From contig WQYT01000007.1 in NCBI GenBank assembly GCA_009781115.1, positions 1 to 38,488 on the forward strand: DNA of 38,488 nt, written 5' to 3'. Below, in pieces: positions 1 to 1,310 of this stretch (positions within the stretch are counted from its first letter, which is position 1; each line of letters starts with the position of its first letter). The translations under genes were made by a program, and so were the position numbers. The notes below the pieces were generated by a model. It did no database searches, was not told the DNA's origin, and saw only the letters and a list, made by a program, of their open reading frames with translations. The stretch is from Coriobacteriia bacterium (lineage in GTDB: Bacteria > Actinomycetota > Coriobacteriia > WRKU01 > WQUG01).

Positions 1-1310
1 CAGACCAGCACGCCGCCGGGCTTCAGGCGCGAGGCGGCCAGTGTGTAGAACTCGCGAGACGCCATGTAGAACGGGACCGAGACATCCTGATAGGCGTCCA
101 CCATGATCAGGTCGTAGCGCTGGCTGTGCTGCTGAATATAGCTGCGCCCGTCGCCGACCACCACCTGGCAGTCCGCGGGCGTCAGCGCAAAGTAGTCGCG
201 CGCCACGTCGACGATCTTGCTGTCCAGTTCGACTCCCGTACAGGTCGAACCCGGCGCCGCCTGTTGCAGCAGCGCGGGACAGGTCCCCGTACCCAGACCG
301 AGCATCAGCGCGCTGATGGGGCGCCCCGGCTTGAAGTTCGCGAGCAGGCCGCAGGCGCCGATCATGCCGTCGTAGTACTCACCGGTCGGCTGATCGATCG
401 TGCGGTTCTCCAGATACTGGCGCGGCAACAGGGACTGCACGCCAAAGAGCACGTTGGTCGAAAAGTAGCGCGCGGAATCATCCTGGCTCACCTGAAGGTA
501 GTTGTAGGAAGATTCCCCCTGATACAGGATTCCGGACTCCCAAAACGCATAGTTGGCGCCCAGGGGAGCGGCAAGCAGCGCCACACAGCAGGCAAGCGCC
601 ACCGCCGCAGGCCACCACTTGCCGCGCACAGCCAGCGCATGAATCAGCACGAGCACCGCCAACGCGACCGCGAACAGCAGGTAGGTGCGCGCGACTCCCA
701 CATCCGGGATCGTCACGAACGAAGCCAGGAAGGTCCCGAGGATACTGCCGAGCGTACCCCAGGCATAGATGCTGCCGATGACCGCGCCCGTATTTTCGGG
801 GCTGGAATCGCGAGAGCCCTCTGCAGATGACAAAATTACCCCAGGGGTAATTTTGTCATCCGTGCGCGCGGAAGCGACCCGCACCAGGAAGGGCGAGACC
901 ATCCCCAGCAGCACCATCGGCGCCACGAACAGCAGCAGGCACGCAAGGATCGAGCCGACCACGATGACCTGGCTGCCCGCGACCACGGCTGCCACCGCTG
1001 CCACGGCCACGATCAGGTACTTGCCCACCAGCGGGATCACCGCGATCCAGAGCGCCGCGATCAGCATGCGCCGGTAGAGCAGCGTGTCGCTGCCCTTGGC
1101 TACGGCGCGGTCAGCGAGCCGCCCACCCCGGTAGTTGCCGAAGGCCATGGCCGCCATGATCAGCCCGATGATGACCGACCAGACCGGCAACGAGGACGAG
1201 AAGTAGGGCGCCAGCAAGCGCGAGGCCGCCAGCTCGACGGCCATCACCGACATGCCGGAGATGAATGCCGATATCCGGTAGAACCACAGCCGCCGTCTGT
1301 TGTTGCCCAT
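1..1310 (-). CDS. Spermidine/polyamine synthase-like membrane protein (methyltransferase fold plus TM region), C-terminus truncated by window edge
   Basis: Minus-strand reading from ATG at 1310: MGNNRRRLWFYRISAFISGMSVMAVELAASRLLAPYFSSSLPVWSVIIGLIMAAMAFGNYRGGRLAD...; continues open through 789-900 (checked by hand). Typical of fused MFS/spermidine synthase-like proteins. Confidence 0.8.
   Translation of the reverse strand, partial: MGNNRRRLWFYRISAFISGMSVMAVELAASRLLAPYFSSSLPVWSVIIGLIMAAMAFGNYRGGRLADRAVAKGSDTLLYRRMLIAALWIAVIPLVGKYLIVAVAAVAAVVAGSQVIVVGSILACLLLFVAPMVLLGMVSPFLVRVASARTDDKITPGVILSSAEGSRDSSPENTGAVIGSIYAWGTLGSILGTFLASFVTIPDVGVARTYLLFAVALAVLVLIHALAVRGKWWPAAVALACCVALLAAPLGANYAFWESGILYQGESSYNYLQVSQDDSARYFSTNVLFGVQSLLPRQYLENRTIDQPTGEYYDGMIGACGLLANFKPGRPISALMLGLGTGTCPALLQQAAPGSTCTGVELDSKIVDVARDYFALTPADCQVVVGDGRSYIQQHSQRYDLIMVDAYQDVSVPFYMASREFYTLAASRLKPGGVLV
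826..860. repeat. Perfect 35-nt palindrome (17-bp arms, 1-nt loop) inside the spermidine-synthase-like CDS
   Basis: gatgacaaaattacccc-a-ggggtaattttgtcatc. Confidence 0.95.

Follow-up and report, generated by a model that had tools for sequence, protein, structure and literature searches.

The first 1,310 nucleotides of contig WQYT01000007.1 (assembly GCA_009781115.1), a 38,488-nucleotide stretch from a Coriobacteriia bacterium that was analysed whole and is called the window here, encode most of a fused MFS/spermidine synthase. Within this gene, and in frame with it, lies a perfect palindrome at positions 826 to 860, which is the subject of this analysis. The features concerned are the following:

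1 to 1310, minus strand: fused MFS/spermidine-synthase coding sequence (CDS), start codon at 1310-1308, 436 residues present, the rest cut off by the contig end
792 to 863, minus strand: hypervariable loop segment (residues 150-173), made of the palindrome and a further variable segment, AEGSRDSSPE
826 to 860, no strand: perfect palindromic repeat, 17-bp arms and a 1-nt centre at 843
826 to 842, plus strand: left arm, GATGACAAAATTACCCC, of the 17+1+17 inverted repeat
844 to 860, plus strand: right arm, GGGGTAATTTTGTCATC, of the same inverted repeat

The two arms are complementary over all 17 bp (100%) across a spacer of 1 nt, so that the full element reads GATGACAAAATTACCCC-A-GGGGTAATTTTGTCATC, and its core 31-mer (828-858) is an exact match to the consensus TGACARAATTACCCCWGGGGTAATTYTGTCA of the dispersed family described below. 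Two arm matches with at most three mismatches were found in the window, against 0.06 expected from shuffled sequences, none of which reached two; they are not attributable to chance. As a single strand of 35 nt, the palindrome folds into a very stable hairpin (-21.7 kcal/mol). A first-pass annotation, made from the letters alone, had described a perfect palindrome with 17-bp arms that leaves the reading frame open and encodes the same peptide on both strands. This description proved exact: the minus-strand frame from 1310 to 1 contains no stop and, because the element is palindromic, each strand offers one stop-free phase, giving DDKITPGVILS in both cases, the other phases running into TGA or TAA.

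Two genomes are compared throughout: the window's own assembly (G000), a metagenome-assembled genome (MAG) of 1.98 Mb in 128 contigs, 87.5% complete, and that of a sister species or congener (G001), 94% complete. The host protein reads MGNNRRRLW...VRVASART-DDKITPGVILSS-AEGSRDSSPENTGAVIGSIYAWGT..., and the palindrome supplies residues 151-161 (DDKITPGVILS) together with two bases of S162. Pfam matches are to Spermine_synth (E 3.4e-10) and Methyltransf_25 (E 2.1e-6); the closest database relative, P0002 (91%), comes from a Coriobacteriia MAG and is named fused MFS/spermidine synthase, and a scan of GTDB contigs with the host protein returned only distant, Lachnospiraceae-type relatives. Full-length close relatives have 556-636 amino acids, the C-terminus lying here beyond the contig start. 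Neither a frameshift nor a stop was found within the 436 residues present, and the ratio of non-synonymous to synonymous substitution rates (dN/dS) against the G001 orthologue is 0.147; the gene therefore does not look like a pseudogene, which the first-pass annotation had held up as one of the findings that would undo its proposal.

In an AlphaFold2 model of mean predicted local distance difference test score (pLDDT) 84.7, values fall below 50 over residues 154-169, and helices modelled at 138-151 and 171-204 border this stretch. The insert is thus predicted to be a flexible loop, in agreement with its earlier placement between two conserved segments. Across the 120 homologues listed and aligned (119 besides the window protein), the segment from RVASART to GAVIGSIYA measures 24 residues in the window protein and 5 in 112 of the 119 others, as would be expected if 20 to 25 residues were absent elsewhere. 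This expectation fails for the close clade: the seven nearest homologues carry 15-42 residues of mostly unrelated sequence. Loops across this clade are long and variable, and the history is therefore not one of a compact protein that simply gained 20 to 25 residues. One relative, P0006, has the loop peptide DKTTPGVILS, which would be the product of a variant of the window palindrome.

The palindrome is a member of a dispersed family. Its 17-mer arm has 17 exact matches in G000 and 85 with at most three mismatches (none for the reversed control), and these resolve into about 41 copies that differ from the core TGACAAAATTACCCC-W-GGGGTAATTTTGTCA by at most five mismatches. The copies are perfectly palindromic in 29 of 41 cases, and the centre base is A or T in every one. 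Arm position 6 is the one common variant (A/G), and in 12 copies both arms are altered together, with a G-C pair for an A-T pair. TGACA/TGTCA ends are present in almost every one of the 41 aligned copies, and the adjoining bases vary. Five copies extend their palindrome by at least 5 bp into the flanks, against about 0.7 in re-paired flanks, but part of this excess comes from composite repeats and it was therefore set aside as evidence. The family is restricted to the genus: G001 holds 8 diverged copies, no copies were found in 59 other relatives, and a looser pattern (TGACA N6 CCCCWGGGG N6 TGTCA) occurs only in G000 and G001 among 401 genomes of the class. The exact palindrome was found neither in phage and plasmid records nor in GTDB genome contigs and IMG/VR, two collections from which G000 is possibly absent.

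Only a minority of copies have coding signal on either side in one and the same frame, as judged by the simple frame-specific composition model on which the counts of copies inside genes depend, and most are therefore intergenic. Several begin exactly at a stop codon. A search of the host genome for further copies inside coding sequences, proposed by the first-pass annotation, was rewarded: several of the 41 or so copies lie in well-identified genes, where they are read in the one open phase. In-frame copies are found in mfd (TIGR00580), where the copy separates the helicase and TRCF domains, in a dihydrolipoyl-dehydrogenase-like gene (TIGR01350), in a protoporphyrinogen-oxidase-like gene (TIGR00562) and at the N-terminus of purL; in purM, a response regulator and an ABC ATPase they form C-terminal extensions. 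All these in-frame copies read D(K/R)(I/N)TPGVILS, because a single phase is open. Among 14 strong-coding flanks leading into a copy, 9 enter the open phase, 4 the TGA-stop phase (one of them, L040, being the non-coding strand of purL) and 1 the third phase. The eight genes that carry copies all have a dN/dS of 0.08-0.18 against G001, and are therefore under purifying selection. A clear case of presence and absence is L068, where the copy is a 57-nt in-frame insertion relative to G001. Another repeat, TCATTGCGAGGAGC...GCGACGCGGCAATCC, is dispersed in both genomes (L073 3061-3120; L066 3090-3160; L198) and also occurs in frame within the protoporphyrinogen-oxidase-like gene.

At the site of the window palindrome, G001 carries a different one, GATGACAAGGGGTCAGGTACTTTGTCAT-TTG-ATGACAAAGTACCTGACCCCTTGTCATC, in frame as DDKGSGTLSFDDKVPDPLSS and with a folding energy of -50.9 kcal/mol; the outer GATGACAA/TTGTCATC (8 bp) is common to both species, with both boundaries matching to the base. 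Thus, the same loop holds repeats of different families in the two species. Half-units of the G001 family (TGACAAAN0-4GTRCCTGACCC) number 107 in G001 and 1 in G000, and those of a further family, GGGGACGGTTCTNNTGTCT, number 93 in G000 and 0 in G001. We compared 19 G000 sites with the orthologous G001 regions, intergenic orthology being taken from flanking BLAST matches. The same family is present in both species at two sites (L056, which is L207 in G001, and L065, which is L209), and a different palindrome occupies the same position at five: the window gene, the purL N-terminus, L060, L061 and L066 near 11664. A different palindrome also lies at the 3' end of purM, and several of the positions at which the family differs are intergenic. 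The L073 site holds another repeat in G001, and L066 near 3012 a TGACAAAAGGTACC stretch, perhaps a remnant; of the remaining sites, L072 resisted alignment and the others are without a repeat. In purL and L060, the occupants of the two species share one boundary exactly, to the base, and differ in the other. The reverse comparison, which took in only the placeable part of the G001 copies, gave some other repeat family in G000 at 8 of 9 loci. A rough estimate of chance, taking about 60 G001 repeat loci and about 15% non-conserved DNA and assuming a uniform spread in permissive DNA, predicts about 0.3 coincidences within 30 bp over 19 sites, against the five seen. G001 has protein insertions of its own: its palindromes lie in frame within carA and ispE (L214 1302-1348; L224 1344-1364) and within an acyl-CoA dehydratase activase, an AzlC-like gene also has an in-frame insert, and in carA about 30 extra residues, relative to E. 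coli CarA, follow the QNHGFCVDF block and precede the next conserved block.

The best explanation, to which we give a probability of about 0.82, is a short, non-autonomous mobile repeat of a Coriobacteriia genus, similar to repetitive extragenic palindromic sequences (REPs) and Rickettsia palindromic elements (RPEs), with turnover of families at shared sites. Palindromes of 31-35 bp with TGACA...TGTCA ends would multiply as species-specific families, settling mostly between genes or at gene ends and occasionally in tolerant protein loops. Copies inside genes would persist only in the stop-free phase, to be translated as a peptide of the D(K/R)(I/N)TPGVILS type, and at shared permissive sites one family would be replaced by another or re-inserted as another, so that a given position would come to carry one palindromic peptide in one species and another in its sister. 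The copies probably moved by transposition or template-directed copying, and the inserted peptide is presumably without a function of its own, being merely tolerated.

Several observations weigh against this explanation. In G001, the position of the mfd copy is taken by unrelated sequence of almost the same length; the copy hence took the place of a variable linker or arose within one, rather than being a simple addition. The loop of the close relatives of the host protein is long with or without a recognisable encoded palindrome. The comparison can draw on just two informative genomes of the genus. The window repeat was not found beside either of the two Y1_Tnp genes of G000, although, given that this assembly is 87.5% complete, a mobilising gene may have been missed, and the more complete G001 has no Y1_Tnp gene. 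Nor did the 41 copies show an excess of adjacent direct repeats that would indicate a target-site duplication of fixed length, the exception being one copy within a tandem array.

A Y1 transposase of the type associated with REPs (REP-associated tyrosine transposase, RAYT) was considered as the mobiliser of the window family and rejected, since Y1 genes are present and the repeat is not beside them. One of the two G000 Y1_Tnp genes, a RAYT-like transposase gene at about 1080-2000 of L082 (G000 C21), is flanked by repeats (GGGGACGGTTCTNNTGTCTC, GGGGACGGTTCTTCTGTCTC) of a family that has 93 half-units in G000 and 0 in G001. Target-site duplication was also rejected, its two candidates, an 11-bp ATGACCCAGAT at L038 and an approximate one at L059, being single cases. 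At L038 (330-420, a gene start), ATGACCCAGAT flanks the palindrome on both sides in G000 and is single in G001, a possible 11-bp duplication that also provides a second start codon.

How the families come to differ at shared sites admits other readings. Each species could have rewritten the interior of an inherited TGACAA...TTGTCA palindrome through gene conversion or template switching between copies, without independent insertion; we regard this as conceivable, with the odds somewhat against it. The spermidine synthase site, with its shared outer GATGACAA/TTGTCATC and base-exact boundaries, speaks for it, as do the single exact boundary at purL and at L060 and the concerted change of the family arms. 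However, these ends are common to both families and so are no proof of inheritance, the other boundary differs at purL and L060, and several G001 sites hold repeats of the TCATTGCGAG or GTAGGGCGCGACGAC type, without TGACA ends, which conversion cannot explain. The window site fits interior replacement, and sites with a differently built repeat in the other species fit repeated insertion. It is also possible, though less likely than not, that fixed positions in conserved proteins and at gene ends serve as landing or exchange sites, where unrelated palindrome families are swapped between sister species, with the frame always kept, by a dedicated mechanism (hairpin-targeted insertion or conversion of one palindrome by another) involving no recognised transposase.

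Selection for a role of the palindromes themselves, as chromosome-organising or regulatory binding sites, or as terminator or mRNA-stabilising hairpins, with in-gene copies as by-products, appears improbable to us. It would account for the stability of the hairpin, for the copies that start at stop codons and for the perfection of most palindromes. Yet the repeat has no T-run typical of intrinsic terminators, on which ground a terminator function was rejected; no other genus of the class that was examined has it; and at most of the compared sites G001 lacks the window repeat and has other sequences or none, although different sequences could serve one role in two species. A chance palindrome or an assembly artefact in a single gene can practically be dismissed, in view of the 41 copies on many contigs with differing flanks and the rarity of arm matches expected in the window, and it is refuted by the orthologous copies in an independent assembly (L056/L207 and L065/L209).

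Among known systems, the RPEs of Ogata, Claverie and colleagues measure about 150 bp, RPE-4 and RPE-6 being shorter, and are present in many copies, many of them in frame within functional protein genes and translated there (PMC3733652, PMC10969869). The window family resembles them in being multicopy (about 41), palindromic and in frame in unrelated conserved genes (SpdSyn, mfd, lpd-like, purL, purM and others); it is set apart by its length (31-35 bp with a 1-nt centre), by its host phylum (Coriobacteriia) and by the different families that sister species hold at one and the same position. The first-pass annotation had likened the element to RPEs and proposed an analogous protein-invading repeat in an unrelated lineage, which the in-frame copies in several conserved genes support; the phenomenon is, however, not confined to Rickettsia, as REPs within open reading frames (ORFs) have been described for several phyla and species, with REP termini supplying stop codons, and recB of two Xanthomonas carries different REPs at about the same site (PMC3733652). 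With the GTAG/CGTC REPs, palindromes of 20-40 bp in high copy number and mostly intergenic, the window family (31-35 bp, 41 copies) shares positions near gene 3' ends, termini giving stop codons and some copies wholly in ORFs. It differs from them in its TGACA/TGTCA ends, without a GTAG or CGTC tag, in the lack of an accompanying RAYT gene, and in a same-site pattern at many loci rather than one; for want of this tag and partner we do not class it in these REP superfamilies. The G000 Y1 transposase gene bordered by GGGGACGGTTCTNNTGTCTC repeats of similar build recalls RAYT-linked REPs, but these repeats are another sequence, and G001 has palindrome families without a Y1 gene. Miniature inverted-repeat transposable elements are likewise short, non-coding and repeated, with inverted repeats and possible in-frame gene fusion; the window repeat is far shorter than their 70-300 bp, is wholly palindromic and has no detected target-site duplication. 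The window family nonetheless probably works in the same way as intragenic REPs and RPEs. New features are the host lineage, the extreme shortness of the perfect palindrome and the recurrent exchange, between sister species, of one family for another at shared sites; we found no report of such repeats for Coriobacteriia in the open-access literature.

These findings add Coriobacteriia to the lineages in which palindromic DNA repeats invade proteins in frame and, as the two species differ in the family that has invaded the same positions, they make insertion, replacement and tolerance separable. Since several shared spots hold different palindromic repeats, these appear to keep invading, or replacing one another, at tolerant points of proteins, a route by which conserved enzymes such as Mfd, PurL, CarA and IspE may gain species-specific loops.

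Elsewhere in the window, a related but distinct palindrome (20368 to 20418, no strand, intergenic) consists of TGACAATCACCCCTGGGGTGTTTGTCA with an outer inverted extension: an inner GTGACAATCACCCC-T-GGGGTGTTTGTCAC is nested within the outer inverted repeat TTTTGTGTTGC/GCAACACAAAA. Its build is like that of the 826-860 repeat and its family is not the same; it sits just upstream of a tRNA-Arg, with a terminator-like hairpin on the other side. The last 45 bp of tRNA-Arg(CCT) (20471-20546) are repeated exactly 2262 bp downstream, at 22764-22808, accompanied by a 71-bp repeat (20576 and 22931), which looks like an attachment-site duplication around a small integrated element. A hipB/hipA-like pair (2648-4215) is bracketed by a perfect 18-bp inverted repeat, CCCGTCCCCCTGTGTTCC (2378-2395 and 4238-4255), and a tandem array of the 12-bp unit TTTGACCGCAGG occupies 35309-35392.
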